NCBI RefSeq assembly: GCF_032854445.1
Contig: NC_088299.1
Location: 17,787,608 to 17,851,607 of the forward strand
Source of the DNA: Liolophura sinensis
Taxonomy: Eukaryota > Mollusca > Polyplacophora > Chitonida > Chitonidae
Direction of reading: 5' to 3'
DNA: 64,000 nucleotides
Below the pieces are notes generated by a model. That model worked only from the letters and a program-made list of their open reading frames with translations. It was not told the DNA's origin and made no database searches. The position numbers and the translations under genes were made by a program. Shown here piece by piece: positions 4,456-62,800 of this stretch. Position 1 is the stretch's first letter; each line of letters starts with the position of its first letter.

Positions 4456-4518
<63 letters not shown>

Positions 4519-14264: not shown

Positions 14265-17200
14265 ATGGCTGATAAATCAAGTCCAAAAGCAGAAGTAAGT
14301 CCATTAGTTTTGTAGTCCAGCGTTCTAAATGTTTGTTGTAAATTCATGCCAGAGCAACCCGTGGTTATAACCATACAGTGCTATAGAGCTCTGGATTGAC
14401 CTTGATCCTTCGTTAAATTAATTCTCAAATGACATTGCACTGGTCTGTAATAAATTATTATTTATTCCATTTCACGGCTAATTCCTCAGTTGAAGTGTGT
14501 CCAGTGTACGATCGATTAGTTGGCCATACAAGGTAATCCTAACTTCAGTCTGAGCCAACTTTCTAACCAGGTATATGCACATCTTTCGATTAGCCTAGAT
14601 ATTGCAACAGAACTCTTCTGTTATTGCAGACGTCGGCGAAGCGAGGCCGTGCTGGACGGAAGGCGGTTCCGTATGACGTGCCGGGCACGGCGTCCCGCGC
14701 AGAGCGCCGGTCAGACCGCGTTAAGTCAATTGAAGAGAAACCCAAGCAGAAAACGTTCCCTTTCCCAGGACAAGTTCTCCTGGCACAGAAATGGGACGAA
14801 GAAAGGTACGACGAAGACAGATCAGAAGCATACTTAGTGCTAAGTAGCCCTTGGCTAAGTCCATTTTATATCTCCATAACATACGTTGCCATTTTATTTA
14901 AGGGCGAACTTAGATAAATGAGTTTCATGAAACCTGCCAAAACCCCCTAACCTCAGTAATACAAACTTGATTGTCTTGAGCTCTACGCCAGTTAAATATT
15001 ATATATACTAATGGTTCTTTTCATGAAGAATAAAGAAACAACCTTCCCCCGGGCTCTGCCCTGTTTCCTCCCACCATGATGCTGGTCGCCGCCGTATAAG
15101 TGACATATTCTTGAGTATGGCGTGAAACACCAATCAAATAAATAAATAAATAAATATAGGAACAACCAACGTTTAAGTTACATAAAAAAAATCCTCAAGC
15201 GATGCATTTACATATGCATTTAAATTAGTCAGGATAGATGTCTATATCTATCAATTTTTCTTCATTAGCGTCGACCCCACGGGATGGTGGATGAGCGAAA
15301 AGCTGGATGGTGTACGAGCATACTGGAGTGGCAAGTAAGTAAAGGATTTAACATCCGCAACAACAACGACATTCAGCTCCTTATGAGGATTATAGGCCCT
15401 ACATACGATATAAATGACAGATTTTCTCGGCCTATGCATTTTTAATTTATTCATGTATTTATTTGTGTATATTTTACTGCACGGGTAATCAAGCAGAGTT
15501 TATTATTACATAAGTATACCTTCTTGTATCCTGGTAAATAAGTTTAAAAAATACAATCAAATGTCACACTCTGCGTCAGTATATTTCGCCTGTATTTACC
15601 ATGGAGTATGCCTGAACAGTCATGAGGATTTTTTTCTATTCCAACAGAAAATTTTTCACAAGGAATGGGAACCCGTTAACTCCACCCGATTGGTTCGTTG
15701 AAGAGTTCCCGGATGACATGTCATTGGACGGCGAGCTGTTTGGTGGGCGGGGCATGTTCCAGTCAACTGTCAGTATTGTGAAAACAGCTAAAGACCCAAG
15801 GTGGAAGAACATTCGATATAAGGTGAGTTGCCCTATCAGCTAGACAAGAACACTGTTTAACATCTGTGAATAGACGTCATTACAATATTGCCCCACATTG
15901 ACCGAAATACTAAAGGCGTCTGTATCAGTCTCATAATAACATCTGTTGCTTTGTTCACTTTTTCAAATCAGATATTTGACACCCCCAGCAATGGCTCGCT
16001 GCCCTTTGAGAAGCGAATGGAAATTCTGCAAGACAGATTTGAGGAGGGAAAGTAAGTGTACACATGACCCACGACACAGAGTGCGCATGCTTTGCAGTTG
16101 TGTTTGTCCTTATGCTCATGTAATGTAACACACGTGAATAGGTAAATCTTACATAATTTGGAATGTGTAGATGTGACAGATATTTACAGCCTACCGCAGA
16201 GTTCCTCTGTCCTTTGGTCAGTCCTTAAATTTATATTGGTTGCCAGTTGTTAAAAAATGCATTAAAAGTTAGCTCAGTCTCAAATCATTATAGGGCCACT
16301 AATCCCACCCTGTAACACAAAATATAAGACAAGAATTTTGAACATCTTGTCCAAGATTCTTGGAATTTTGCCGGCTATACCTGAGTTCACATACTTATGA
16401 ACGCGACTGCGCAAATTACATTCACTTCTTTACGGGCTGTATTCCTTTTCCCCTCAGAACTACATACTTGTCTCTGGTAGAACACACAAAGTGTAAAGGC
16501 AAAGAGCACATTGAGGAAGAGTTGCCGAAGGTGTTAGCCCGCGGTGGAGAGGGCCTAATGATCAGGGAGCCAAAGTCAAAGTACGAACAAAGAAGGTCGT
16601 ACACCCTGCTCAAGATCAAAAAGTTTTACGACGCCGAGGTAAGGACTACGCCGTTCAGTAATCTCCAGATAGCCTACATACATATAAATCCGAAAGTTAC
16701 TTTGTGCGCCTTTGTTAACGGAATAGTATAAATATGGCGACAGAAATGTTAAGAAACATTAATTGACAACATTCTACTGACTCTCATTTCATTGACCTTT
16801 ACCCTCCACAGGCAGTAGTAATTGGTCACGAGAAGAGTAAGAGTGGAGCCGGCGGTTGTGGGGCGCTGAGGTGCCGAATGGAGTGTGGCAAGGAGATAAA
16901 AGTCGGATCAGGGTAAGATATTAATAATATATCACTTGCCAGAGAGACACAGTGAAACCAGATTTTACAGAAAGCATGTGAAGAAATCAAACTTTTGTAT
17001 AAACGGGTATCGAATGATTATCCCACCAAAATGAAATTCGACTGAGCAAATGTTGATTCAACATTCAATGTATCTTAATTAGACATTCAAATGAGATGAC
17101 TTAGTCAACACAGTTATTATTCAAACATTAAAAATTAAATTTAAAACATTATTATAAAGCTTAAAAGTAACATAACGAGTGAAAATCAATCAGTTATGAC

Positions 17201-17890
17201 GCCTGCACATGTACAGGTAGCTAGTACAGAAGACTGTTGGCGGTCAATTTAGTGAGATTTTCAATCCTTTTCGTTGGTGGGAACGTTCAAGCCCATACAT
17301 CTATACAAGTAGAAATATCTTGATTTAAGGCGCACGAATTCATAACAGAGAGAAATCAAGGAATGTAGAATTCCAGAATCACCTATTCAAATGCAAGATT
17401 ACTGAGTACATGAATTATAGCTCTTTATACGCGAGAAAACAATGAAGATGGCAATGTAAGGTGTTAGGGTAGCTGTGTTAATGAGAGCGGTTTAGGGTTA
17501 GTCCTGTTTTAGGATGTCCACACAGCGTGCCTTTATAGGAGTAAGGCCTATTGTGTACTATTTTATTAAATCTTGTCATCACAACTAATCAGCACAGTGG
17601 AATGGGACCACGTTTCTAAGCATCTCACTTTTAACACTTCCGTTAGCCTATACATATTTTCATCGTAGAACTTGTACGGTTACTATATTGTCATTTCTCT
17701 CATGTATCACAGGTTAACAAATAAAGACAGGCGGAACCCGCCCAAAATCGGCACCATCATCACCTACAAATTCCAGGAATATTCGGATTCGGGAAATCCA
17801 AGGTTCCCCTCCTATATCGGCGTGCGCATCGATATGGACTCGCCCAAAGACGCCATACTTCCCGCCAAAATCAAAGAGGCTGCCACGTGA
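14265..17890 (+). CDS. Small ATP-dependent DNA ligase, 8 coding exons, 328 aa
   Basis: Coding exons: 14265-14294, 14630-14805, 15269-15334, 15648-15822, 15972-16051, 16458-16638, 16812-16912, 17713-17890; every junction is GT-AG and phases join to 328 codons plus TGA. The product should adenylate itself on a lysine and seal nicks in DNA. Seen: motif I SEKLDGVRA with candidate nucleotidyl lysine at residue ~80, motif III LDGELFGGRG (~117-126), motif IV GGEGLMIREP (~205-214), motif V LLKIKKF (~226-232), then a ~95-residue C-terminal part suited to an OB fold. The first ~60 residues are basic and poorly conserved (KRGRAGRK). Length is close to minimal viral/bacterial ligases (~300 aa) and far below animal LIG1/3/4. 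The blocks 'DPTGWWMSEKLDGVRAYW' and 'DWF..FPD..SLDGELF' resemble, from memory, a bacterial short-ligase group, so an old transfer is possible. An acceptor at 14239 implies an upstream 5'UTR exon. Family call firm; subfamily and localisation uncertain. Confidence 0.88.
15043..15157 (+). mobile_element. 5'-truncated SINE in DNA ligase intron 2
   Basis: CCCCCGGGCTCTGCCCTGTT through TAAGTGACATATTCTTGAGT and CACCAATCAAATAAATAAAT. Only the 3' half of the SINE is present, ending 111 bp before exon 3. Confidence 0.82.
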
Positions 17891-19024: not shown

Positions 19025-20608
19025 TCACTGCATTAACTGCATGGTAATACGGTGGCTGACAGCGTCCATTTTGACACGGAGTAACTGCATGGTAATATGG
19101 TGAAAGACAGCATCCATTTTGACACGGAGTAACTGGATTGTAATATAATGGTGGCTGACAGCATCCATTTTGACACGCAGTAACTGCATGGTAATATGGT
19201 GGCTAATAGCATCCATTTTGACACGCAGTAACTGCATGGTAATATGGTGGCTGATAGTGTCCATTTTGATATGGAGTTAACTGCATTGTAATATAATGGT
19301 GGCTGACAGCATCCATTTTGACACAGAGTAATTGCATGGTAATATGGTGGCTGACAGCGTCCATTTTGACACAGAGTAACTGCATGGTAGTATGGTGGCT
19401 GACAGCGTCCATTTTGACACGGAGTAACTGCATGGTAATATGGTGGCTAAGAACGTCCATTTTGACACGCAGTAACTGCATGGTAATATGGTGGCTAATA
19501 ACGTCCATTTTGACACGCAGTAACTGCATGGTAATATGGTGGCCGATAGCGTCCATTTTGACACGCAGTAACTGCATGGTAATATGGTGGCCGATAGCGT
19601 CCATTTTGACACGCAGCAACTGCATGGTAATATGGTGGCTGATAGCATCCATTTTGACACGTAGTAACTGCATGGTAATATGTTGGCTGACAGCATCCAT
19701 TTTGACACGGAGTAACTGCATTGTAATATGGTGGCTGACAGCATCCATTTTGACACGCAGTAACTGCATGGTAATATGGTGGCTGACAGCGTCCATTTTT
19801 GACACAGAGTAACTGCATGGTAATACGGTGGCTGACAGCGTCTATTTTGACACAGAGTAACTGCATTGTAATATGGTGGCTGACAGCATCCATTTTGACA
19901 CGCAGTAACTGCGTGGTAATATGGTGGCTAATAGCGCCCATTTTGACACGCAGTAACCGCATGGTAATATGGTGGCTAATAACGTCCATTTTGACACGCA
20001 GTAACTGCATGGTAATATGGTGGCTGACAGCATCCATTTTGACACGCAGTAACGGCATGGTAATATGGTGGCTAATTACGTCCATTTTGACACGCAGTAA
20101 CTGCATGGTAATATGGTGGCTGATAGCGTCCATTTTGACACGGAGTTAACTGCATTGTAATATAATGGTGGCTGACAGCATCCATTTTGACACGGAGTAA
20201 CTGCATGGCAATATGGTGGCTGACAGCATCCATTTTGACACGCAGTAACTGCATGGTAATATGGAGGCTCACAGCATCCGTTTTGACACGGAGTAACTGC
20301 ATTGCAATATGGTGGCTGACAGCATCCATTTTGACACGCAGTAACTGCATGGTAATATGGTGGCTGACAGTGTCCATTTTGCACAGAGTAACTGCATGGT
20401 AATACGGTGGCTGACAGCATCCATTTTTGACACAGAGTAACTGCATTGTAATATGGTGGCTGACAGCATCCATTTTGACACGCAGTAACTGCGTGGTAAT
20501 ATGGTGGCTGACAGCATCCATTTTGACACGCAGTAACTGCGTGGTAATATGGTGGCTGACAGCATCCATTTTGACACGGAGTAACTGCCTGGTAATATGG
20601 TGGCTGAA
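19025..20608 (+). repeat. 48-bp satellite, about 33 copies
   Basis: The unit is approximately TAACTGCATGGTAATATGG, TGGCTGACAGCATCC, ATTTTGACACGCAG. Most copies are 48 bp; a few have ATAATGG or one-base insertions that change the frame. Since 48 bp is 16 codons and the unit lacks minus-strand stops, all three minus frames and one plus frame stay open for long stretches. It is intergenic, between the ligase gene and RABIF. Confidence 0.92.
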
Positions 20609-26167: not shown

Positions 26168-29076
26168 ATGAGTTTTTCTAATCAGGAAGCACCAGGTATT
26201 GGATTTAAGAAGTTTGTGTCAGAGGAGGAACTTGAGGAGAAACGGAAGAAGAGACAGGAGGAATGGGATAAAGTGAGACAACCAGATGACCCAGAAGGTA
26301 TGCAATTGGTCTAACCAGATGAAACTGAAGGTATGTCATTGGTCTGACCAGATGACCCTGAAGGTATGCCATTGGTCTAACCAGATGACCCTGAAGGTAT
26401 ACCATTGGTCCAATCAGATGACCCTGAAGGCATATCATTGATTTAACCTCATGACCCTCCCATAGGTCCATCATCTGGTCTAGATGAGGCTGCATATTTG
26501 AATCTAACTCTCACTGTTCTGACTGTTGCTTTATGTCAGGAGAGTTGTTCGTGCCATTGTCGGAGACCGTTTCCACTGGGGATTCCCCCAGTTGACCTTA
26601 ATAGTACAGTGGACCATCAATGTGATAGGTGTGGCATATTCTATCCTGAGTATATGTACTCTTGTTTGGTGTGTAGTCTAGCTTAACCTGAAAATAGCTT
26701 AGTGTTGGTTTTGCTGGCATATTTCTGTCACATCTAGGAAAATGTTTCTGAGAAAAAAAATCATTACAAAGCCACAAGTTTTCTGCAATCATTCATTGAT
26801 AATAAATTTGAAATCAAGAAATAAATACATTGCTATTGAAGACGTTGAAGGACAGTTGTTGTTTTGATTTTATTTACATATCAGTTGCTTTGAATGGTGT
26901 TTTCTTGTGTTGTAGAGTGTCCAGAAGAAAAATATGATCCCCGTTCTCTATTTGAGCAGCTGGAAGATCAGAAAAACAAGAAACAAGAAGAATATGAGGA
27001 GCAGTTCAAATTGCGTATGTTTGCCAAGTTTATGGAAAGTTTTATCCACCTTGTGCAACTTTATAAGTGCAACTTCTTTTAGTTGTGTGAATGATGTAAA
27101 GCCAGGAGCAAAAAATGATGCTTCTACAGTTAACATAGGTTCAGGGTTGTAAATACATGTACTAAATCTGTGTATGCTTGTTTCATTGGGAGCTGTGCAA
27201 GCATTTAATATACACACATATTTCATGCACATACAAGTCGTTGTTAAGGCACTGTTACAAAACCATATCCAACCAAGTACAAGGAACCCTGCCAGATTAG
27301 TGATGTTGCTTTCTTGGTTTTGTGGTATTTGATCAGGTAACCAAGTAAAAGGGCTGGGTGAAGATGAGGCTGAGTTCCTGGATTATGTTTCTAACCGACA
27401 GATTGAGATCAACAGGCAGCGCGCAGTGGAGACAGACTCTATTCTGCAGGAGATGAGAATATCCTTATATCAGTCGTGCGTTGCACAAATTTTTACCAGA
27501 TGGAAAACACTGAGTAAAGGGATACAGTTGAATTTAGACATTTGTAATTCAGATTTGTCTTCATAATTCACATTGATCAGCTCAAATTCAATCAGTTTTG
27601 GCTATTATTTTAGCATAACCCAAGTAATTACCTTTCACAAAATATCAGCCTTGTCTGTGCACACGTTACCATTCAAACTGGTAATCAAGTTCCTGAAATC
27701 TAGTGCTCTTCGTAAGTATTGTCAAGAAAATTTGCACCTAATCTTCCAAAATACAGATTGTCTGAGCTAACTGTTTAACTGTTTCAAGTGTGTGAGCAGA
27801 AGCTCTTTGATTACCCTTGCATCAATTCTGCCTCAGCAAGAACAGCGCACTGAGAAAAAGATCACTCGTGTACGCGTTCTGCAACCAAAATTGGCTGACT
27901 TTGTATACCAGAGTTATCCCCCCTTAACCACTACCCAAGAATCTAAGGTGGAGATAATTGCTGCTAAAGATAACAAACAGGAGGAGAAGAAAGTGTTGAA
28001 ACCTCAAGTGGGAGCCTCCCAGGGCAAGTCCCAGATGGCGCTACTAGCAGGGGCTATCAAACGGAAGAGGTAAGACACCACCACATATTCAAGGGCAGGT
28101 GGCCAGCTCCGTCAATATGTAAGAAATATTACAAAGGCTTTCTGTGTTGTTCTGCTTGGTAGCTTTGGTCATGTGGTGTTTTCTGTGACAGATGCTTTCA
28201 GTGTAGAGTATTGAGGTAACTCCAACAAGATACAGGGTGATGCTGGTTTAAATAAAACCAAAATATCCTTTGTGAAGCTTGTCAGTGGAAATGGAAATAG
28301 GTGCTTTTAGTGGGTTAATATTTTGAATAGAAACGCAGTTCGACAGTTGATCACCCATGTATGGATAGAAGAGATTCTTCAGTGGAAAATGTTCCCTGGA
28401 TCATTGGAAATGTCATGTGGAGTTCCTCTGTGATGAAAAGTCGAAATTTTTAAACAGATGTAAGATAAAAAGTTTCAGATAATCAACTCCTTAGGTGGAA
28501 GTCCTGCATGCATATCAAGCTTCAGTTTACTGCATGTATCACAAAATTTTGTATTGTTTCTCTTTGAAGCTCCGATGCTAAAGACGATGAGAAGAAGAGA
28601 AAGCTCTCAGGTGGAGGTAGGTGGACACAGTTTTGTTGTACGCAGACTAAATGTTACATATACTCAGGGTCAGTAAATAGATGTATAAATCACTTGTTGT
28701 TTCAATACAAAGGACATTCTCTTTCTTGAACATAAAAGCGCTGAGTAAATTTTCACTACCAGTTAAACTGTGGTAACGTAGTTTTGCTAACAAATCTGGC
28801 AGGAAAGTTGTAAGTGTGCGCATAATAACGTGAGCGCTTGGTATTGTGTTCCCTAACTGATCTTACATTTGCGTTGTTTATACAGACTCTCCATCCAAGG
28901 AAACAAAAGACAATGACAAACCAGGCAGTTCCTCAGCAAATTCTGTGGCTAAGATAATTGGAGTGTTGCCAGGATTAGGAGAGTACACGAACGACACGAG
29001 TGACTCAGAGACGTCCAGCAGTGATTCTGAAGTGGAGGTTAAAGCTACAGACAGTGTCATCATACGTTCCAAATGA
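26168..29076 (+). CDS. PSME3IP1: PA28-gamma (PSME3)-interacting protein, FAM192A/PIP30, six exons, 273 aa
   Basis: Exons: 26168-26297, 26916-27014, 27337-27458, 27837-28069, 28570-28616, 28886-29076. Phases join to 273 codons plus TGA (human about 254 aa). In vertebrates the nuclear protein binds the proteasome activator PA28-gamma and modulates its associations. Seen: the NIP30-domain start [20 protein letters not shown], then [40 protein letters not shown], the lysine-rich region ending [12 protein letters not shown], and the conserved tail [19 protein letters not shown] with an acidic serine run, the region reported to bind PA28-gamma. Two oddities: exon 1 is followed by tandem copies of its own 3' end and splice donor (26279-26467), and exon 3 ends at ATATCCTT, the U12-type AT donor. 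The first coding exon is probably preceded by a 5'UTR exon; I cannot place it. Confidence 0.92.
26279..26467 (+). repeat. 33-bp tandem repeat (~6 copies) seeded on PSME3IP1 exon 1 and its donor
   Basis: The motif ACCAGATGACCC.GAAGGTATGC begins in the exon (26281; the codons for QPDDPE and the donor GAAG|GTATGC) and recurs at 26314, 26347, 26380 and 26413, with a decayed copy near 26446. Every copy except the last two retains GGTATG or GGTATA. The unit is 33 bp, but the first intronic copy contains an in-frame TAA, so using a downstream donor would end translation. Confidence 0.85.
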
Positions 29077-31488: not shown

Positions 31489-32530
31489 CAGAGAGCCCAG
31501 AGGGACCCACACCTGCCAGGTACATCTACCTGCCCAGTCACAACTACAGTTATTTACATATCTTATGTATCTGATAGATGTTCACACTGTACTCACTATT
31601 ACACTTCCACACGTACATCTCTGATGGCAGACAAGCTTACTGTGGAGGAAATCAGAGCCCAGAGGGACCCACACCTGCCAGGTACATCTACCTGCCCAGT
31701 CACAACTACAGTTATTTACATATCTTACGTATCTGATAGATGTTCACACTGTACTCACTATTACACTTCCACACATACATCTCTGATGGCAGACAAGCTT
31801 ACTGTGGAGGAAATCAGAGCCCAGAGGGACCCACACCTGCCAGGTACATCTACCTGCCCAGTCACAACTACAGTTATTTACATATCTTATGTATCTGATA
31901 GATGTTCACACTGTACTCACTATTACACTTCCACACATACATCTCTGATGGCAGACAAGCTTACTGTGGAGGAAATCAGAGCCCAGAGGGACCCACACCT
32001 GCCAGGTACATCTACCTGCCCAGTCACAACTACAGTTATTTACATATCTTATGTATCTGATAGATGTTCACACTGTACTCACTATTACACTTCCACACAT
32101 ACATCTCTGATGGCAGACAAGCTTACTGTAGAGGAAATCAGAGAGCCCAGAGGGACACACACCTGCCAGGTACATCTACCTGCCCAGTCACAACTACAGT
32201 TATTTACATATCTTACGTATCTGATAGATGTTCACACTGTACTCACTATTACACTTCCACACATACATCTCTGATGGCAGACAAGCTTACTGTAGAGGAA
32301 ATCAGAGAGCCCAGAGGGACACACACCTGCCCGATACATCTACCTGCCCAGTCACAACTACAGTTATTTACATATCCATGTACCTGATAGATGTTCACAC
32401 TGCACTCACTATTACACTTCCACATGTACATCTCTGATGGCAGACAAGCTTACTGTAAAGGAAACCAGAGAGCCCAAAGGAACCCAAACCTGCCAGGTAC
32501 ATCTACCTGCCCAGTCACAACTACACTTAA
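31489..32530 (+). repeat. 162-164-bp tandem array (~7 copies) with exon-like units
   Basis: CTGATGGCAGACAAGCTT recurs at 31621, 31783, 31945, 32107, 32271 and 32435, preceded by a partial copy at ~31489. Each unit has pyrimidine-rich DNA, GGCAG, a 51-nt segment (53 nt in the later copies through an added AG) and CCTGCCAG|GTACATC, which looks like a donor. Because 162 is a multiple of 3, a 216-residue open frame crosses the first four full copies (31624-32274). No known protein family is recognised in it. It lies between PSME3IP1 and the 3' end of NDUFB9. Confidence 0.85.
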
Positions 32531-33115
32531 TTACATATTCATGCATCTGATTGGTGCTTACAATGAACCCAGTATTTCACTTACACATTATATACTTAAT
32601 GGCAGTCACACTAGTTTATGGGTGGGAAACTTGGGCTCTGTTTCACAAAACTTGCTATTTTCGCTCAAGCAGTATTTTTCTTGTGCAACATACCATACTG
32701 AGGCCAGACCAATGTAAATTGCTGTTTCCCATCAGAATAAATCTTTTTTCAGTGTCATCTGTTTCCAGTTTATGTGAATTGCAAAGGTTACATAATACTT
32801 AACTGCATCTACCGTACATGCCCAACACTTTCACCAATCAACAAGTTGCGCATTTGGCCCCATTCTGGGAATTCTACTGATCTCATGTAGGTGCTTGGAA
32901 GTCTGCTTGAAAGGAAGGATGGTGTCACAGCACCAAAGGTATTATAGCCCATTTATTGTAAATCTTTTTGATTTTCCTCTAAAGCACTTTTTTCAGTGGA
33001 ATTTATGCAAACAATTACATGTATTATGAAAGACACCCAAAATGGTTTGTGTAACCAAGATGCAAGCTTCATAAAACTGAGCAGATTTTTTTCTCTACAC
33101 CCCACAGTTTTGAAA

Positions 33116-34091: not shown

Positions 34092-37000
34092 TCAATGGGC
34101 CCCATCCAGTTGGGGCTTGCCGTATTGCTTCTCCCATCGCTCAATATACTCCTGCTTCCTCTTCTCTCGCCGAGCAAAATATTCAGGGTACTGTGCCTTC
34201 TCCAGGGGTGCCCATGTGTCATAGATCTGAAAGAGTTACCCATCAATGTTACATGTAGTGTCCCTGTAACAATGTGCGTGCATGTTAACTACTTGAGTAA
34301 ATTAGTCTATGTTGTGCAAGATAACGTACCAAGATAATGTACCAAGCTATCATAATGTCTAATCTTGCCACTCACACTGCATGTGATGAACCACTGAATA
34401 ACAGGGGTTTGTAGAAAGCTCTGAATGATACATAGGTCTATATACATATGATATACATATATAGTAATACATGTATCAACTTCCCAACAATAATCTTACT
34501 TAGATGTTATTTGGGTGTTTGGACAGGAGACAAAAAAAATTTAACTCAAAACACTTCAAATTACAAACAAAATCTGAAAATCTGGGAAAAATCTGATAGT
34601 TGATATCAGTGATATATGCACATGTAATGCTAGGGATGCTTTGTTACACCCACCTCAGAAAGATTTCCTCTGGACATGAAATGGTTAACTACAATGTATG
34701 TATTCTGTAACACAACTCACCCAGTCAGGTACAGGGGGTTCTCTGCCATACGCCACTCCACCAGGCGAATTAGGAACTGGAACAGGACAGAAAGTAAACA
34801 GTCAGTCAATACTGACACAGCGAGAGGAGTTGTCAACCTTACAATTAACCTGCCATAAAGAAAGTCCCTTACATATACCAGAAACATGCAGCCTTTTAAA
34901 TATGAAAACTAGATTCATACATGTATACATGTGCCAGCTATGATAACACATTATTACACCAGGGTTGATACGGCTGCATAAAATTCCCTTAGGTTTAATG
35001 ACAATATTTTTCACTGACTTTACCACCCACAAAAGTATCTTTCAGCGCGAGAGAATCTCAGATAATCCCATCTACAAGTAGCTTTCGTGTGACTGGATAC
35101 ACCTTATCACTTTCTGCTTCAAGTTGCTGCCTCTGTGTGTGCAAGTAAAGTGACTTGGATATACATGTACACAACCATCACCAGGATCACAGTTTGTTAC
35201 CCAAATCAGCCAAGGATTATTGGCCAACAGACCTGTCACCAGGACCAGGCCATCACAACAGAGTGACAATATTTTCTTTATGGCTTTGTTTCTTAACAAA
35301 AATTAAATTTTATTTAAGGTATTATAGCCAAGGGAATTTCATTTCTTTTCTTTCCTTTTAATGACTGAGTGATATCTAAGCCGCTCTTTGCCATAGTACT
35401 TTAAAGGTACATGTAACATCCAATCATGCTTCTGACTTCAACAACCTACATTTCACAGGCTGGACATGCTGGTTTAAGAACAGTTCCCTCTCGCCATCCT
35501 CCAAAAGCTTCTTGGCCACCCTTAAATCTTTCACATCTTTGTTTTCATCAAACCTGGCTCTCATCAGGACACAATTATATCTGTACCAGTATCTGGAAAA
35601 AACAAGCACACACCACAGAACATGTTCAGACACATTCAGTCTACTGAAAACACCTGCCCGCACCACAGAACATGTTCAGACACATTCAGTCCGCTGAAAA
35701 CACCAGCCCACACCATAAAAACTACATGTGTTTAAACACATTCAGTCTGCTGAAAACAAAAGCCCTCGCTGTAAAAACTATGTGTTCAGACACATTCAGT
35801 CCGCTGAAAACAAAAGCCCACACTATAAAAACTACGTGTTCAGGCACATTCAGTCCATTGAAAACACAAGCCTGCACCATAAAAACTAGATGTGTTCAGA
35901 TGCATTCAGCCCATTGAAAACACAAGCCTGCATCATATAAACTACGTGTTCAGACATATTCAGTTCATTGAAAACACTAGCCCACACCATAAAAACTAGG
36001 TGTTCAAACACATTAAGTTCACTGAAAGCACAAGCCTCCACCATAAAAACTACATGTGTTCAGATGCATTCAGTCCAATGAAAACACCAGCCTGCACCAT
36101 AAAAACTACGTGTTCAGACACATTCAGTCCACTGAAAACAAAAGCTCACACTATAAAAACTAGGTGTTTAGACACATTCAGTCCACTGAAAACACCAGCC
36201 CACACCATAAAAACTACATGTGTTCAGACACATTCAGTCCATTGAAAACACAAGCCTGCACCATAAAAACTACATGTGTTCAGACACATTCAGTCCACTG
36301 AAAACAAAGGCCCACACTATAAAAACTAGATGTGTTCAGGCATATTCAGTTCATTCAGTTCGTGTGTTCAGACACATTCAGTCCACTGACATCACCAGCC
36401 CGCACCATAAAAACTACATGTGTTCAGACACATTCAGTCCATTGAAAATACAAGCCTGCACCATAAAAACTACGTGTGTTCAGACACATTCAGTCTGCTG
36501 AAAACACAAGCCTGCACCATAAAAACTACATGTGTTCAGATACATTTAGTCTACTGAAAAGAAGAAAATACTCTGATTTAGTAGCACTGCGACCAAAGAG
36601 TTCGCCTGGAGAAGACACATGAATGCAAACTTCTGCTTAATACGGTAATAAATATGCTCACATCATAATGGAACATTCCACTTGTGTTACTGTGCTCTAC
36701 ACGTGTGCAGAAACAGAGCTCAATACATGTAGAACTTCAGATACCACTCTGAACATTTGCTTTACCTGTTATTGTACACCTATGTTCAGGGTATCATCAT
36801 GACATAAGTACATGTATGTGGGTTAGGAAAGTCCACGCTACAAGGCGGGAAGCACTATGCACATAGTTTGAGGGCATCGGAAACGCTCTGGGTGGCCTTT
36901 GACTTGATCTGGCCCTGTTTGACCAAGTTTGAGCTCCGAGATATACATGTACATGAGTGATGAGTCCAAAATAAGTGGACTGGGGAATAAGCAAAGAAAC

Positions 37001-47800: not shown

Positions 47801-50800
47801 AACGTTTGTCGGTAGCTGTCCAAATGTCATCAGTTTACTAACAACACTCCAGTTTCCTATACTGATAAAACAGACTGTCATCGTGTAAGTCAAAATTCCT
47901 AGGTTTTACGTTAAAAACACAGTCAATAAAGTAAATGAAAATGGATGTCGTGTATTGTGTTCAGTATGGTGAAGATACAGGTACATTGTAACCTGGAGTC
48001 CCCCGATTTTTTTTGGATGATTTTGTTGTGTTAAACGAGGTCCAACTAGTGTGCTCCAACTTATGCATAGCGGTTATGTCAAAACGGTTTGAAAAAACCT
48101 TGCGATCTCAAGCAACTGACACCATGTGGATGCAAGCACGTATAGATCAAAAGAACTGTATACAGCTGGATACTTAAGGTTTGCAGAAAAGTAAAACATG
48201 TTCATTTGCTTAGTCAGCAGTTGTCAGTGACCATAATATATACATATATATGTTTGATTGATGTTTTATGCCGGTCTGTACCTGAAGTGCCTGTTTGAAA
48301 ATTTTCCTTGAAGGCAGATTGTATGGTATTGCCCGTTTATGTTTTAGTATCAGAGGCTATACAGAATCAACACCAGTGGACGTATGCAAAGTCCACCAGA
48401 ATTCTTAACATCTCTTATAAAACAGGTAAAAAAGATAGTTTGCCAATTTAAGTCTATTTCAATGATGTTTCTTAATCAGAAATCGTTTTCTCTAGTCGTC
48501 CATTGTAAATTAAGACAGAAATTCGAAGTACTATTCTTTAAAGGCAAACACAGATAAACACATAATTACTTTCTTAACTTGTTTAAAACAGTGGCGATAA
48601 ACTAAACATTATTATCAAAACTTGTGAACGTGTGAATATTCTATTGTGTGGCCTTCTTGTTTTTTGTGACAATACCTTTGTAAGTTTTAGTTTGTGTCGT
48701 ACCCTGAGTGTCAGCGTCTAATAACTGGGAGGGCAATGTTGAACAAAATTTGGTATTTTAAAACGTACTGCCGGTATTGAGATCAAGGTTAGCGCACATA
48801 TAGAGCACAATAACACCAGGGGGATATTCTGTCATTGATTCAGTGTGTACATATTAAATAACGTACCTTACCAATTTTGGGACTTAGTGTATTATGTATT
48901 ACAATCTGAGTTAAACAACATGTTAGCGGTGGTATCACAGAACGTATAGCATGTATTGACCTGAAGTTTTACGTGCATGTAAGGCACAATGTCCCATCAC
49001 TGATGCTCTGTGTGCATATTGATTACAGTAAATTACCAAATTCATGATTTCATTTATTATGTATTGAGCTGAAGTTCTGTGTTCATGTATCTGTTCGGAG
49101 CCTTGCTACCAAATATAAGTTAGGTGCTGTGATCTTTGGAAGTGTAACAGCTTGCCAGGTGTTTGTTGTTTACCCTGGCAACTCCAGTTTTCTCCACTCA
49201 AGAAAATGACCACATTGGTATATGTGCACAGGTTTTGGCATTTGGCATTGGCAATGGTCAAATAAATATATGTGAGGCCCGTTAGTACTTGTATATCCTG
49301 TTTTGTTTTGTTCACAGTTGTTTCTGTTGATGACATCAGAGGAGATTGGGAATGTACTGAGTACAGTTGTTCAGCAGCAGGAGCTGGGATGGCGCTTTAC
49401 CCTAACGCTCACCTCCACATTTCTCCTCTGTTATCCTGATGCCCCAAACATGGTGAAAGGTGATTTACCTGTAATCTGGCACAGATCAGTGCCTCCATAT
49501 TGAGTGTCCTCTGTTATCCTGATGCCCCAAACGTTGTTAAAGGTGATTTACCTGTAATCTGGCACAGATCAGTGCCTCCATATTGAGTCTGCTCTGTTAT
49601 CCTGATGCCCCAAACGTTGTTAAAGGTGATTTACCTGTAATCTGGCACAGATCAGTGCCTCCATATTGAGTCTCCTCTGTTATCCTGATGCCCCAAATGT
49701 TGTAAAAGGTGATTTACCTGTAATCTGGCACAGATCAGTGCCTCCATATTGAGTCTCCTCTGTTATCCTGACACCCCAAATGTTGTAAAAGGTGATTTAC
49801 CTGTAATCTGGCACAGATCAGTGCCTCCATATTGAGTCTCCTCTGTTATCCTGATGCCCCAAATGTTGTAAAAGGTGATTTACCTGTAATCTGGCACAGA
49901 TCAGTGCCTCCATATTGAGTCTCCTGTTATCCTGACACCTCAAACGTTGTGAAAGGTGTTTAACCTGTAATCTGGCACAGATCAGTGCCTCCATATTGAG
50001 TCTCCTCTGTTATCCTGACACCTCAAACGTTGTAAAAGGTGATTTACCTGTAATCTGGCACAGATCAGTGCCTCCATATTGAGTGTCCTCTGTTATCCTG
50101 ACACCTCAAACGTGAAAGGTGATTTACCTGTAATCTGGCACAGATCAGTGCCTCCATATTGAGTGTCCTCTGTTATCGTGACACCTCAAACGTTGTGAAA
50201 AGTGATTTACCTGTAATCTGGCACAGATCATTGCATCCATATTGAGTCTCCTCTGTTATCCTGACACCTCAAACGTTGTGAAAGGTGATTTACCTGTAAT
50301 CTGGCACAGATCAGTGCCTCCATATTGAGTCTCCTCTGTTATCCTGACACCTCAAATGTTGTGAAAGGTGTTTAACCTGTAATCTGGCGTAGATCAGTGC
50401 CTCCATATTGAGTCTGCTCTGTTATCCTGACACCTCAAATGTTGTGAAAGGTGATTTACCTGTAATCTGGCACAGATCAGTGCCTCCATATTGAGTCTGC
50501 TCTGTTATCCTGACACCTCAAATGTTGTGAAAGGTGATTTACCTGTAATCTGGCACAGATCAGTGCCTCCATATTGAGTCTGCTCTGTTATCCTGACACC
50601 TCAAATGTTGTGAAAGGTGATTTACCTGTAATCTGGCACAGATCAGTGCCTCCATATTGAGTCTGCTCTGTTATCCTGACACCTCAAACGTTGTGAAAGG
50701 TGTTTAATCTGTAATCTGGCACAGATCAGTGCCTCCATATTGAGTCTCCTGTTATCCTGACACCTCAAACGTTGTGAAAGGTGATTTACCTGTAATCTGG

Positions 50801-53800
50801 CGCAGATCATTGCCTCCATATTTAGTCTCCTCTGTTATCCTGACACCCCAAATGTTGTAAAAGGTGATTTACCTGTAATCTGGCACAGATCAGTGCCTCC
50901 ATATTGAGTCTGCTCTGTTATCGTGACACCCCAAACATTGTGAAAGGTGTTTTACCTGTAATCTGGCGTAGATCAGTGCCTCCGTATTGAGGTATTCACA
51001 GCAGGTAAATCTCCACTTCAAGCAGGGACGTACATGTATATTTTCCCACATGAAGTCTTTGACGAGCTTTGGTGACAATAAGCAGGCAACAACAACAACG
51101 TGGCTGGCTGCGCCATCTAACACACGTTGACGATCACTCGTCTCAATTCTGCCGGTTTGAGGTACAAGTTTGTGTGTTATACACAAGTCTGTATGTCACA
51201 AAGACTGTGTGGTGGTTTACCTAAGGCACTGTGGTTTCCACCGCTAATAGAACTGGGTGCCACACTACACATGAAAAATTACTTGCATGTCTTTGAGAAA
51301 CAATCAGAGAAATAATAAATTTTATACTGGGCGAGAAGTACCCAGGAGAAGAGATGCATGCACGTGATGAACACATGGATGTTCCGCTTGTTTGTATTAG
51401 CAGTAGATGAAAGGCTGTGGATGACTTTTAACTTTTTATATAACACTCCTTTTCCAGCAAGCTGTTTGAATTCATGACTAAATGAGTTCATTTTTGCACT
51501 TGAAAAAATGGATTTTTTTTCTGTTTTTTTTTTTCTTCGTCCCCTTAGATTTGTTAAAAGAGCTTCTGGGAAGGGCTATGGAGAACTGTGAGACTCTTCA
51601 GCTGACCGGTGTTTTCCTGTTGGCAAGACAGGCCTGCCTGGAGGGACCTCATATTTTCCCACCATACAGGAACTGGTTCTCTGTAGGTCATGTTGTCCTA
51701 GAGGCACAATGGTCATTCCAGGGATCGTTAATTACCAAATTCCTGACTTAGTGTATTGTTTACTAAAATTAATGGTAAATGAAATGTTAGGGGCGGTATC
51801 TCAAAGAATACAGGATTTATTGACCTGAAGTTTTACGTGCATATAAAGCACAATGATACATGGGGGTGCGATGAGAAATCCACCTGTTTATAAGTCTCAA
51901 AATATGCTAGGATAATATACCAAAGTATATTGTTGAACTATGCCTTTTTACCGTAACTATAGTTTTCCAGTGACAACAAACTTCATAAACTGTGATCTTT
52001 GTGGTGTACCTGGTATGCAAGAGATCCATGTTCTAAGTAGTAATCCTCATATGAAGAGACTTACAACTGTACAAATTCAGAGAAGTGTTTCCCTCTCTTA
52101 TTTTCAGATCACATTTGGAGACTCCAAATCTCCAGCGAACAACAGGAAGACATTCTTGTTCTTGATGAAGTTTTTATCTGATATTGTTCCATTTGAGACG
52201 TCTCAACATTTGAAGGTATGGGGGTAATTGGCTATGTGAAGACTTTCCTATTGCTTGTCTCACAGTTTACTTTTTTTTTTATAGTCACCTGAATATATAA
52301 AGTCCAGTTGAGTATACAGTACAGTCCTGTGCTTGAAGGGACATGTAATCTAATTGAACCTTGGCTGTGGAGAGTGGTCAAGCACACCCATTACTGAAAT
52401 AAACACTAGAGATGTTGTAATGTGCTCACATGAAAGCTCATGGGATGTGTGTTCATTTTAGGAAGGATATTTAGCAAATCATCACATAATGATGATAATG
52501 GATTATTGAGATTATTATCATCTACATTTATTGATTAAGGGATATAAATGTAGTTCATTTTAGAAGATTGGATAATTTATTTGTAGAGCAATATTACGAT
52601 GGTTATGTCCAGGCTTTTAGGGGTTGAGAACTTTTTGGAGAAATACAATGTTGAGTATAAAGAAAGTTTAGACAATCAAATACAGGGATCATTGTTCAGG
52701 TACCCTTAAAATCAGATTATACAGAGATCTCTATAGTATTAACTGTCTGTACATATATATATATATGTAAGTTTGTTTGATGCATGTGGCCAGCTTAACT
52801 GTTTTTTCATTAACTTTATCCATTGATTGATTGTTGTCTAATGCTGTACCCAAGAATGTTTGACGTATGTTATGGTTGGAGGAAACCAAATGGTGACATT
52901 TGAGTTTAGCTGTATCTGTGGTTGTGTGTGCATGTTGTCAGGTGCACATTCTGAAGCCACCGTTTGTACCCTCCAAGTGTAGAGAGGTTCTATCAGATTA
53001 CCTGACGCTGGCTAGAACTAGGCTAGCTGACCTCAAGGTGAGTAGTCGTCTGGTCTTATTCCTGTACACGTCTCTGAAACAAACATGCCATCTGAGGTAT
53101 GTCACTTTTCTCATTTATAATAGTTTATGTACTGGTAAAATTAAACCATTTGTTAATTAAAGCATATGTGATGCCTTCATCAAAAGAAGAATAAAAACAA
53201 ATATATATCCCATACATATATGTAGTGAAAGCGTGTATTAGTTAGCCTTTGGTGTTTGAGTTCAGCTCATGCTAGTGTCCTCTCCAGCAGTATGTGGGTA
53301 GGTCTGCCAGCAACCTGCTGATGGTTGTGTTCTACCTCACTATAACGCTGGCCACCACTGTACAAGTGAAATGTTCTTGAGTACAACATAAAACACCAGC
53401 CAAAATAAGTCCATTTTAAATTAGCTCTTTGTCTGAATAGGAACATGAGGATTTGAGAGTGACTTGTTCTGTTTGTTCATTGGTTTGCTGGACTGCTTCA
53501 TGTCAGACTATTAACTGCTGAGTAGGGTGCACCTGTCAAATCATGCTGACTGTGAAATAAATAACAATAACTGGCGGGGTTATTTGTATGTGGATTGTTT
53601 TTTTGTTTTTAATAAGGAGTTTAGGGTCACTCTCGTTTGTTTATTAGTCTGCTGAACTGTTTTAAGTCAGACCGCTACCTGATGAATATGAATCAGGTAT
53701 CAGATGAATCCATATCAGGTCATGCTATCCTTGTGACGGACTATTTCCAGGTAAGGATACATTTGCTGATCGTCTGTTGCAGGACCCTATTGACTCCGGA

Positions 53801-56800: not shown

Positions 56801-59800
56801 CCTTGGTTAGCACTCAGCACTGAGAGGTTAGAGCAAGGAGCAAGACTGGTTGACCAGGTGTCAGTATAATGTGACTGGATGGGATTTTAGGTTTCAAAGT
56901 ACGACGATAAACCTCAAGAATATATACATACATTTATTTTGACCGGTGTTCAGGGCTGTACATAGATGATGATGACTCCATGGAGGACGCTCTCTTACAG
57001 CCCATGGATCAGCTGAAATACAAACTTAACCAGCTGCTGGAGACTCTGAGCCAGTCCAAAGGGGAGAGCACCCAAACAGGCTGGAAAGGTTTGTACCCCA
57101 TTAGATCTTTTTAATTAGACAGTACACACTGATTTGGAAAGTGATTTTGTATAGTGAGCCTCACTTCTGATTTACACTATTTGACCTAAAATTCCTGTTC
57201 AAGGTTAAGTTACCCATCTTATCTAATTCTGATAGATATGTCCATCTAAGGAAGGTGTTTTGAGGTTTGGATGGCAGGAACATATATTACTACTGGCAAA
57301 GTGTAAATGTCAGATCAGAAAATATGTGGGCACATAGATGACAGTAAATTTTCTTGAAGTAACACGTTCACATAGTTGTGAAAGTGGGTGCATGTATATA
57401 AATGTCCAAAGAGACTGATATGTTTTTTTAAAAACATATATTGACAGTTTTTAGTCTCCTGATATTCAACTCCAATAATTCTTTTGATTCCAGACATGCT
57501 TTCCCATGTCTCAGAGAAGCTGGATGTTGTGTTAGCCATCCAGGGGAAAGAGGCAGGGGAGGTTGCTCAGACATGCAGTTTTCTCTTTTCTAACTGTCCA
57601 CAGCTCACCCACAGCAATTTACAGGTAATCATACAGGTGTAACAGGGTGAAATATAAGTGCTATCTAGCCCCGAGCTGGTTGGGGGTTGGGTTGAAGGCT
57701 GGGGTCAGGGGGTCAGGGGGGGCTGGGCATTTCCCTTTACTCTGGTGGTAGAAACTTGGACTCAAATCCCATAGATTGCTGGTTCACATCCCCAGCTGGC
57801 TTGTCCCATTACTGTTCAGCAGTGAATATGCCTCCATTAAACCTGTATCACTAATCACTATCTCCACTTCATGACTTCATTTCCTTGCTTACAGGTAGTA
57901 GACGCCCTGCTGAACACAGTCTGCAGGATGGTTGTCCAGGGTGGTAAACACCTCACAGTGCTGGCTGATAGCTTGCTAGCCCTAGTGAAGATGCTGTCCC
58001 ACCACCCTACCATCTACCCAGCCCTAGTGGTAAGGGTGTACAAGCTGATTACAGAACAGGTAATACTTCTGTAGGTGTGGTGAACTTCACAAATACTTTT
58101 TGTACAACAGATTACATATTGTATGTACTTTAATTCTTCAACCTCTTTGCATGTTTGCAAGGTGTTTATTCAAGCATATTCTTAGGGCATTATTCTGTAA
58201 GGACAGATAAGATCATACATAACCTGGCCAACCCAACCAATGCAGTTTTTCCTAGAATCAAATTAAAAATGCGCATAAATTGCACTGGAAGTTGCTCTTT
58301 CATATGGGAAACAGTTGAGGAATCAGGGTATCACAAAGCTGATCTGAAAAGATTGGCATTTGGAGCTGGAATTATAGTTTATGGGTAAAGTTGCATAGTA
58401 CACTTATATAAAGTGTTAAGCAATATAATGTCCTGTGTCAGATAACTTCAACTAACACATAATGTGTGCTTTGCATAATTAATTTGGAGATAAAATGATA
58501 CTCAGTTGTAATGGTCATGATGACTATGTGCCAGATTTGTTGATGTTATTAAGTTTTTTTCTTTAACTTTAGGGCCTTAGATTGGAATCTCATCATATTT
58601 TTGGGATTACTGCCTTATTAGTTTGTCTAGGAGCCACCTCAGACCTGTGGCCACCGATCAGTGTGTATGACAAAAACATGTCAGCTCATGATCTTGTTCA
58701 GCACCTGAGTGGTCAGTTGTATCACCACACTAGCCAATGGATGATGTTTTCTCTGAGGTAAGCAAATGTAGATCCATGTGTACCTATTAGTTCAGTGTAC
58801 TGCATTGGTGTTCCAGGTCTTAAATTAGAGATAAATGTCAAATCTAAAGTAACTTAATTTTTAACATTTAAATGTTTTTCAGACATAGTAGCTTGTTTAA
58901 ACTAAAAAATATTAATTGCTTTAGTATGATGTTTCAGAAGAGTGAAATGCAAATTTAATGTTTTGAACAGATTGTAAACTCTGAATTTTCTTATTTGGGT
59001 TTTATTTCGTAATTTAGCACTAGTAAAACATATTATTATATACATGTGTAATATAAGCAATGTCATTGTCTGACTGACTCGTACTTTGTTTGATAAACCC
59101 AGTCGATGCACCCTGTTCCCATCGTAGTGAAAGTTTGCATGTTTCAGGTTCTGTACATCATACCTGCGACATAGCTTCTGGCTGTTCTCAGCCACTAGTG
59201 TTGAGGGGGGAAGTGATACCTGTGTCTTTGTCCCAAAGTTTCTAGTGCAAAGTTTGCATGTTTCAGGTTCTGTACATCACACCTGTGACATAGCTTCCGC
59301 CTGTTCTCATCCACTAGTGTTGTAGGGGGAAGTGATACCTGTGTCTTTGTCCCAAAGTCTCTAGTGCAAAGTTTGCATGTTTCAGGTTCTGTACATCAAG
59401 CCTGCGACATAGCTTCTGCGTGTTCTCAGCCACTAGTGTTGTGGGGGGAAGTGATACCTGTGCCTTTGTCCCAAAGTCTCTAGTGCAAAGTTTGCATGTT
59501 TCAGGTTCTGTACATCATACCTGCGACATAGCTTCTGCCTGTTCTCAGCCACTACTGTTGTATGTCGAAGTGATACCTGTGCCTTTGTCCCAAAGTTTCT
59601 AGTGCAAAGTTTGCATGTTTCAGGTTCTGTACATCATACCTGCGACATAGCTTCTGCCTGTTCACAGCCACTAGTGTTGTATGGGGAAGTGATACCTGTG
59701 CCTTTGTCCCAAAGTCTCTAGTGCAAAGTTTGCATGTTTCAGGTCCTGTACATCATACCTGCGACATAGCTTCTGCCTGTTCTCAGCCACTAGTGTTGTA

Positions 59801-62800
59801 TGGGGAAGTGATACCTGTGCCTTTGTCCCAAAGTCTCTAGTGCAAAGTTTGCATGTTTCAGGTTCTGTACATCATACCTGCGACATAGCTTCTGCCTGTT
59901 CTCAGCCATTAGTGTTGTATGGGGAAGTGATACCTGTGCCTTTGTCCCAAAGTCTCTAGTGCAAAGTTTGCACGTTTCAGGTTCTGTACATCATACCTGC
60001 GACATAGCTTCCGCCTGTTCTCATCCACTAGTGTTGTATGGGGAAGTGATACCTGTGCCTTTGTCCCAAAGTCTCTAGTGCAAAGTTTGCATGTTTCAGG
60101 TTCTGTACATCACACCTGTAACATAGCTTCTGCCTGTTCTCAGCCACTAGTGTTGTATGGGGAAGTGATACCTGTGTCTTTGTCCCAAAGTCTCTAGTGC
60201 AAAGTTTGCATGTTTCAGGTTCTGTACATCAAACCTGCGACATAGCTTCTGCGTGTTCTCAGCCACTAGTGTTGTAGGGGGAAGTGATACCTGTGCCTTT
60301 GTCCCAAAGTCTCTAGTGCAAAGTCTGCATGTTTCAGGTTCTGTACATCATACCTGCGACATAGCTTCTGCCTGTTCTCAGCCACTAGTGTTGTATGGGG
60401 AAGTGATACCTGTGCCTTTGTCCCAAAGTCTCTAGTGCAAAGTTTGCATGTTTCAGGTTCTGTACATCATACCTGCGACATAGCTTCTGCCTGTTCTCAG
60501 CCACTAGTGTTGTATGGGGAAGTGATACCTGTGCCTTTGTCCCAAAGTCTCTAGTGCAAAGTTTGCATGTTTCAGGTTCTGTACATCATACCTGCGACAT
60601 AGCTTCTGCCTGTTCTCAGCCACTAGTGTTGTATGGGGAAGTGATACCTGTGCCTTTGTCCCAAAGTCTCTAGTGCAAAGTTTGCATGTTTCAGGTTCTG
60701 TACATCATACCTGCGACACAGCTTCTGCCTGTTCTCAGCCACTAGTGTTGTATGGGGAAATGATACCTGTGTCTTTGTCCCAAAGTCTCTAGTGCAAAGT
60801 TTGCATGTTTCAGGTTCTGTACATCATACCTGCGACATAGCTTCTGCCTGTTCTCAACCACTAGTGTTGTATGGGGAAGTGATACCTGTGTCTTTGTCCC
60901 AAAGTCTCTAGTGCAAAGTTTGCATGTTTCAGGTTCTGTACATCATACCTGCGACATAGCTTCTGCCTGTTCTCAGCCACTAGTGTTGTATGGGGAAGTG
61001 ATACCTGTGTCTTTGTCCCAAAGTCTCTGGTGCAAAGTTTGCACGTTTCAGGTTCTGTACATCATACCTGCGACATAGCTTCTGCCTGTTCTCAGCCACT
61101 AGTGTTGAGGGGGGAAGTGATACCTGTGTCTTTGTCCCAAAGTCTCTAGTGCAAAGATTGCATGTTTCAGGTTCTGTACATCAAACCTGCGACATAGCTT
61201 CCGCCTGTTCTCATCCACTAGTGTTGTATGGGGAAGTGATACCTGTGCCTTTGTCCCAAAGTCTCTAGTGCAAAGTTTGCATGTTTCAGGTTCTGTACAT
61301 CATACCTGCGACACAGCTTCTGCCTGTTCTCAGCCACCAGTGTTGTATGGGGAAATGATACCTGTGTCTTTGTCCCAAAGTCTCTAGTGCAAAGTTTGCA
61401 TGTTTCAGGTTCTGTACATCATACCTGCGACATAGCTTCTGCCTGTTCTCAACCACTAGTGTTGTATGGGGAAATGATACCTGTGTCTTTGTCCCAAAGT
61501 CTCTAGTGCAAAGTTTGCATGTTTCAGGTTCTGTACATCAAACCTGCGACATAGCTTCTGCCTGTTCTCAGCCACTAGTGTTGTATGGGGAAGTGATACC
61601 TGTGTCTTTGTCCCAAAGTCTCTAGTGCAAAGTTTGCATGTTTCAGGTTCTGTACATCATACCTGCGACATAGCTTCTGCCTGTTCTCAACCACTAGTGT
61701 TGTATGGGGAAGTGATACCTGTGTCTTTGTCCCAAAGTCTCTAGTGCAAAGTTTGCATGTTTCAGGTTCTGTACATCATACCTGCGACATAGCTTCTGCC
61801 TGTTCTCAGCCACTAGTGTTGTATGGGGAAGTGATACCTGTGTCTTTGTCCCAAAGTCTCTAGTGCAAAGTTTGCATGTTTCAGGTTCTGTACATCATAC
61901 CTGCGACATAGCTTCTGCCTGTTCTCAGCCACTAGTGTTGTATGGGGAAGTGATACCTGTGTCTTTGTCCCAAAGTCTCTAGTGCAAAGTTTGCATGTTT
62001 CAGGTTCTGTACATCATACCTGCGACATAGCTTCTGCCTGTTCTCAGCCACTAGTGTTGAGGGGGGAAGTGATACCTGTGTCTTTGTCCCAAAGTCTCTA
62101 GTGCAAAGTTTGCATGTTTCAGGTTCTGTACATCATACCTGCGACATAGCTTCTGCCTGTTCTCAACCACTAGTGTTGTAGGGGGAAGTGATACCTGTGC
62201 CTTTGTCCCTAAGTCTCTAGTGCGAAAGGTAAAGCCAATTTTATTACAGATTATGAGATCTGTTTTTTGTTGTTAATACATAAGTCCTTTTGTACATTTA
62301 TTGATTGTGTTTGTTTACATTTATGTAATGTCTGATATACTAGTAAAATTACTTCATAAGAAGACTTCTTCTCATTGACAATGATTATTTAGTAATTTTG
62401 ATTAACATCACGGATGAATACAAGTACCGGTGCAGTCTGTGGAGTTTAAATTAAAAACTTACCTGTTCATGCTTTAATGTATTTCTCCAGTTCACCTACC
62501 TGAACAGCCGACTGTTTCCAGACATTGAACATGAGCGTTGGGGTTCAGGAGAGATGTTACTTAGTGGGTGGGAGGTTGACCACCCACATCTGCTGTCCAT
62601 GGATGTATCTCAGTCTATATTCAGGTCCAAAGTGTTCCAGGACCTGCTCACACATTGTCAGGTATGAAAATTCAGAAAGTAAAGCATTTATTTATTTGAT
62701 TGATGGGAGATGGGAGCACAGGGGATAGCCACGACCACTCGCAGGTTGTTGACAGACTTTCCCACGTACAGCCAGAGAGGAAACTAGTATGAGCTGGAGT

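Follow-up and report, generated by a model that had tools for sequence, protein, structure and literature searches.

INTRODUCTION

Tandem repeats that lie over a single intron/exon boundary have been described in amphioxus under the name of "mirages", in Adh3 and in the globin genes BflGb6 and BflGb9 (PMC3087553), and repeats in TnC and PGBD5 have been added to these cases (PMC3902484). As reported there, the repeats occupy the acceptor side of the boundary in BflGb6 and the donor side in BflGb9, many copies keep their AG or GT signals, and splicing of Adh3, TnC, and the globins is regular (PMC3087553, PMC3902484). Here, we describe arrays of similar anatomy in a mollusc, within a 64-kb stretch of scaffold_13 of the chiton Liolophura sinensis (the whole of this stretch is called the window below). 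The principal array consists of 26 copies of a 119-bp unit at one coding exon of FANCA. The assembly (GCA_032854445.1) was built from PacBio HiFi reads with a mean length of 8,347 bp at 14× coverage, and was published under the species name L. japonica (PMC11068029); the identification was later revised in a correction (PMC12441733).

The chiton arrays, which are known from sequence alone, look like amphioxus mirages in their anatomy: they are tandem repeats over one intron/exon boundary, and many copies keep AG or GT signals. Normal splicing would follow by analogy. The chiton arrays differ from the amphioxus ones in belonging to a mollusc rather than to a cephalochordate, in the reach of the 119-bp unit, which covers nearly a whole coding exon, in its copy number (26, versus 6 and 3 units in two reported haplotypes of BflGb6), and in occurring twice in one gene and three times in 64 kb.

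Other described systems are less similar. The earthworm metallothionein clone Lr6F14, likewise lophotrochozoan, carries duplicates of its fourth exon that reportedly stay outside the final transcript. Unlike the chiton locus, however, it is described as combining tandem exon duplications with inversions, its minisatellites are intronic, and its description includes no short-unit array over one splice site (PMC12783039). The abalone TSSK1 repeat is described as an intronic minisatellite, and a word match over open-licence PMC papers, which is no proof of absence, found no molluscan boundary array. The Rogers model of intron gain (cited in PMC3087553) shares with the chiton locus a tandem AG/GT duplication that multiplies splice signals, the surplus of which turns intronic, and a potato RdRp gene has been reported as a case of intron gain by tandem duplication (PMC4974935). 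In the chiton, in contrast, the flanking introns pre-exist; the extra intron that the National Center for Biotechnology Information (NCBI) model places between a decoy copy and copy 26 is putative. If our reading of the chiton locus holds, the mirage phenomenon extends to a mollusc, and a rule suggests itself: growth of a minisatellite across an exon boundary may be acceptable if the repeated unit includes no more than a single splice site.

RESULTS AND DISCUSSION

Anatomy of the array at FANCA exon 24

The joined exons 23, 24, and 25 match the Pfam family FANCA_arcN (PF24783, E = 5.9e−19) and are similar to the solved FANCA structure 7kzp_A (E = 1.5e−7), and the best of 85 database matches is the NCBI model "Fanconi anemia group A protein-like [Liolophura sinensis]" (P0001 below). 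Judged by domain content and structural similarity, the gene that bears the array is FANCA. Its exon layout was taken from a spliced alignment to P0001, in place of an alignment to a human scaffold that had put false mini-exons inside the array. Splicing of the window reproduces the N-terminal 937 residues of P0001, provided that one extra decoy exon is included and exon 11 is left out. Across the window, FANCA exons as modelled are 34 to 216 nt long.

The array contains 26.1 copies with 96% matches (Tandem Repeats Finder [TRF], 64-kb window) and, when cut at the acceptor, yields 26 exon starts at 59148 + 119k. Its unit joins 14 bp of the intron end, acceptor included, to 105 of the 106 bp of a coding exon. 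The 14-bp intron end, TTTGCATGTTTCAG, stands directly 5′ of the exon and is exact in 22 of the 26 copies. While the acceptor is retained in every copy, the donor is retained in copy 26 only, as AAAG/GTAAAG (the slash marks the splice point) at 62228/62229; near its end, this copy has an extra base (GCGAAAG versus GCAAAG in the other units), which is followed by the donor GTAAAG. Pairwise identity among units 1 to 25 averages 0.963 (range, 0.916 to 1.000), with 26 variable columns and 3 identical pairs out of 300. A 26-nt acceptor pattern, at up to 3 mismatches, has 26 matches in the window, every one inside the array, and none in 100 shuffles. The predicted RNA structure of two 119-bp units does not stand out (z = −0.44; an equal or better fold in 58 of 200 shuffles), and an Rfam scan gave no matches at the gathering score.

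At the two ends of the array lie TAGTGAAAG (59125-59133) and TAGTGCGAAAG (62218-62228), and the junction between units, TAGTGCAAAG, may be regarded as a composite of the two, which is consistent with a duplication at short homology. A preliminary description of this locus had already proposed a 119-bp, 26-copy array of a FANCA exon, an upstream exon ending at 58757, a downstream exon that starts at 62491 with FTYLNSRLF, 26 near-identical acceptors with one true donor, and a junction formed at these two short sequences. The present analysis bears out all of these points, the last as plausible. However, the array had been drawn to 62241, which is intronic, whereas the true exon copy ends at 62228, and the exon, then numbered as the 25th, is the 24th in the window by our count.

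Predicted choice of copy 26

To score splice sites, we used matrices trained on 31 donors and 33 acceptors of the window, with the sites of the arrays themselves excluded. The acceptor of copy 26 scores 5.8, a value equalled by 19 of the 25 decoy acceptors. Two decoys score higher (copy 1, 6.9; copy 6, 6.1) and four lower (copies 8 and 17, 5.7 each; copy 11, 5.1; copy 18, 4.7), and, therefore, acceptor strength is not the selector. The true donor at 62229 scores 8.0, compared to a leave-one-out median of 8.8 for the 31 window donors, and the best donor-like site in the single decoy unit scanned (copy 11) scores 3.4. When exon 23 is joined to an acceptor and read to the true donor, a stop is met from all 25 decoys, and the frame is open from copy 26. 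The resulting exon measures 106 nt for copy 26, 225 nt for copy 25, and between 225 and 3,081 nt over the 25 decoys.

Under exon definition, splice sites are paired across short exons, and a donor that stands alone is matched with the closest acceptor upstream. Given the single donor and an exon of 106 nt for copy 26 versus 225 nt for copy 25, exon definition predicts the use of copy 26 with no special device. We consider it likely that the 119-bp array is a neutral boundary minisatellite of the mirage type, tolerated because its sole donor would pair with the nearest acceptor. With 26 nearly equal acceptors competing for one donor, the locus is a natural case of proximal splice-site choice and a natural test of exon definition.

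Two further boundary arrays in the window

The exon 24 array had initially been read as a single event, a view that finds no support. Besides the amphioxus mirages, the window itself holds a second and a third array, both of which repeat a donor and the end of an exon (Table 1). One has an 83-bp unit made up of the final 38 bp of FANCA exon 11, the donor, and 45 bp of intron; the other, with a 33-bp unit, lies in PSME3IP1/FAM192A and repeats the donor of the first coding exon along with the exon end before it. As in amphioxus mirages, the unit spans the exon-intron boundary in all three arrays, holding the acceptor in the 119-bp array and the donor in the other two. The genuine boundary, as read from sequence rather than from transcripts, lies at the edge of each cluster, namely, at copy 26 in the 119-bp array and at the exon-side copy 1 in both donor arrays. 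The NCBI model of PSME3IP1 (P0086, PSME3-interacting protein), which could be rebuilt from the window except for five residues at one exon boundary, uses the exon-side copy-1 donor at 26297.

Table 1. Positions in the window of the three boundary arrays and of associated exons
Feature	Position	Strand	Remarks
33-bp × 5.4 array	26280..26458	+	End and donor of first coding exon of PSME3IP1/FAM192A
FANCA exon 11, added in this analysis, not in NCBI model	49318..49459	+	Copy 1 of the 83-bp array forms its 3′ end
83-bp × 19 array	49422..50991	+	Exon 11 end, donor, 45 bp of intron
FANCA exon 23, upstream neighbour of the 119-bp array	58573..58757	+	Ends on two bases of a codon
119-bp × 26 array	59125..62228	+	14 bp of intron end with acceptor plus 105 bp of exon; copies 1-25 without donor
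25 decoy exon copies	59148..62108	+	Span from the exon start in copy 1 to the exon end in copy 25
Decoy copy 13, placement of the extra 90-nt exon of the NCBI model	60576..60665	+	Own alignment; encoded residues identical in copies 11 and 12
Copy 26, FANCA exon 24 of the window, 106 bp	62123..62228	+	Sole copy with acceptor and donor
FANCA exon 25, downstream neighbour of the 119-bp array	62491..62661	+	Begins FTYLNSRLF

To relate arrays to gene structure, we merged 32 TRF rows by hand into 20 arrays, with (TA)n at 4459 and a T-rich row at 45117 excluded, and compared them with 68 junctions, among them those of the added exon 11 and a PSME3IP1 boundary (27458) that is approximate. A splice junction is touched by three of the 20 arrays. 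These three also touch modelled exons, which no other array does.

Contrary evidence and alternative explanations

Several observations weigh against a neutral array with undisturbed splicing. In P0001, one decoy copy is spliced to copy 26, and exon 11 is absent; this is the opposite of undisturbed splicing, and it concerns both FANCA arrays. Four of the 31 training donors score lower than the best decoy donor-like site (3.4). In the PSME3IP1 array, the copy-2 decoy donor outscores the copy-1 donor (10.1 versus 8.5), and the 83-bp array keeps AAGGT donors in 18 of its 19 copies, 14 of them scoring 7.8, as copy 1 does. With decoy donors that are equal or better, the donor arrays would depend on proximity alone. 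Breakpoint homology was not seen, by eye, at the ends of the 83-bp and 33-bp arrays. Finally, the overlap of arrays with junctions is not clearly above chance, either in the whole window (3 of 20 arrays versus 0.92 expected under random placement of single units, P = 0.06) or within genes (3 of 11 arrays versus 1.15 expected, P = 0.09). Special seeding of arrays at splice boundaries is, therefore, unsupported, and the arrays give evidence of tolerance over one splice site rather than of a preference for boundaries.

The structure of P0001 would be accounted for if decoys were used, a copy being spliced in as a 90-nt in-frame mini-exon that gives FANCA one or more extra 30-aa repeats. Each copy has a weak internal site, CCCAAA/GTCTCT (GTTTCT in two copies), through which one copy adds 90 nt in frame, and 23 of the 25 decoys are stop-free when read in this way. 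The earlier statement that exactly one copy fits in phase thus holds for the true donor but fails for this internal site. P0001 contains exactly one such insert, an extra 90-nt exon of 30 residues that ends at the internal site and is coded identically by copies 11, 12, and 13. As a donor, however, this site scores between −0.2 and −0.4 across the 25 decoys, versus 8.0 for the true donor. The 12 further FANCA proteins that were aligned, out of 84 matches besides P0001, all lack a second exon copy, and the array copies show no third-position bias. Moreover, the first 43 nt of copy 26 are common to 13 of the 25 decoys (44 nt to 3 of them and 60 nt to none), so that reads ending there cannot separate the copies, and short reads could have misled the annotation. 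We regard the use of decoys as improbable. The related proposal of the preliminary description, that the gene must pick copy 26 past 25 decoys, would fit exon definition, but it is at variance with P0001, the only annotated product found for the locus, in which decoy 11, 12, or 13 is joined to copy 26.

Slightly less probable is recursive splicing, in which each CAG/GTTCTG would act as an acceptor and then as a donor, the units leaving singly to give the same final mRNA. AG/GT is present at all 26 acceptors, but CAG/GTTCTG scores 3.4 as a donor (3.2 in copy 6), which is low for the window, and no observation here requires such a route. An assembly artefact, affecting either the copy number or the array itself, might be suspected from the 14× HiFi coverage (PMC11068029) and from the reportedly aberrant assembly of the BflGb6 array in the amphioxus draft (PMC3087553), but is the least probable of these explanations, as HiFi reads, at 8,347 bp on average (PMC11068029), are longer than the 3.1-kb array, all but 3 of the 300 unit pairs differ, and two arrays of like anatomy lie nearby.

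Evolution of the decoys and origin of the array

The decoy copies look neutral in sequence. Across copies 1 to 25, the variable exon columns are distributed as 8, 9, and 6 over codon positions 1, 2, and 3 (n = 23), with no third-position excess, and copies 2 and 9 have a stop in the exon frame. Blocks of variants recur along the array: copies 2-3 resemble copies 9-10, copies 14-15 resemble copies 19-20, and one marker is common to copies 1, 17, and 25. Such recurrence is the pattern expected from unequal exchange.

We hypothesize that the array arose when a segment was duplicated in tandem, probably at the short homology (TAGTG..AAAG) of intron end and exon end. This event would have joined the last bases of the exon to the intron 14 bp 5′ of the acceptor, creating a 119-bp unit without a donor. 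Growth to 26 copies and homogenisation of the unit may then have come about by unequal exchange or gene conversion, as the pattern of variants supports. Splicing would have remained undisturbed, with the single donor at 62229 pairing with the nearest acceptor, that of copy 26, and with the 25 upstream acceptors, which have no good donor at normal exon length, leaving inside the intron. The decoys would then drift free of coding constraint.

The NCBI model and the frame of exon 11

The 47-residue segment encoded by exon 11 is missing from P0001 and present in all 12 other FANCA proteins aligned. The NCBI model thus departs from these 12 proteins at both FANCA arrays, which serves as a warning for annotation. 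In the assembled sequence, the end of exon 10 (48348-48425) is in phase 1 and the start of exon 11 in phase 0; inclusion of exon 11 leads to a stop, and its skipping keeps the frame. In bivalve FANCA proteins, Q directly precedes the exon 11 segment in 6 of 6 cases and K-Q in 5 of 6, and exon 10 closes with an A-run, TATAAAACAG, that has one A more than a K-Q-type end requires. The phase clash reflects either a one-base error or allele, or a true skipping of exon 11.

Relaxed constraint on exon 11 is not evident: the ratio of chiton-bivalve to bivalve-bivalve similarity is 0.52, versus 0.61 and 0.64 for the neighbouring exons, given approximate exon limits in the protein. Conservation only slightly below that of its neighbours speaks against a long loss of the exon. 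Two alternative in-phase acceptors for exon 11 are poor, with scores of 1.0 and −3.9 versus 12.4 at 49318 (matrix including the exon 11 sites), and the splice choices that could bring exon 11 into frame include one possible mini-exon at 48941-48978. It is conceivable, if doubtful, that boundary arrays do alter the product, with exon 11 skipped in this chiton, the extra base of exon 10 compensating, and a mirage caught in the act of deleting an exon.

Other features of the window

Three more arrays deserve mention. A 162-bp × 6.8 array (31489-32587, 95% matches) is partly open as a 54-residue repeat and lies outside the three mapped gene models. Also outside the mapped gene models, a 48-bp × 32.6 array (19030-20607) has long open stretches on both strands. 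Upstream of FANCA, a 54/56-bp array (35623-36560) has higher-order periods, with TRF rows of 110, 164, and 200. The window also contains a short ATP-dependent DNA ligase-like gene (15622-17887), whose 246-aa protein, P0206, was rebuilt exactly from the window and carries the Pfam domains DNA_ligase_A_M and DNA_ligase_OB_2. Among the matches listed, its best relatives include fungal, bacterial, and environmental as well as animal proteins.

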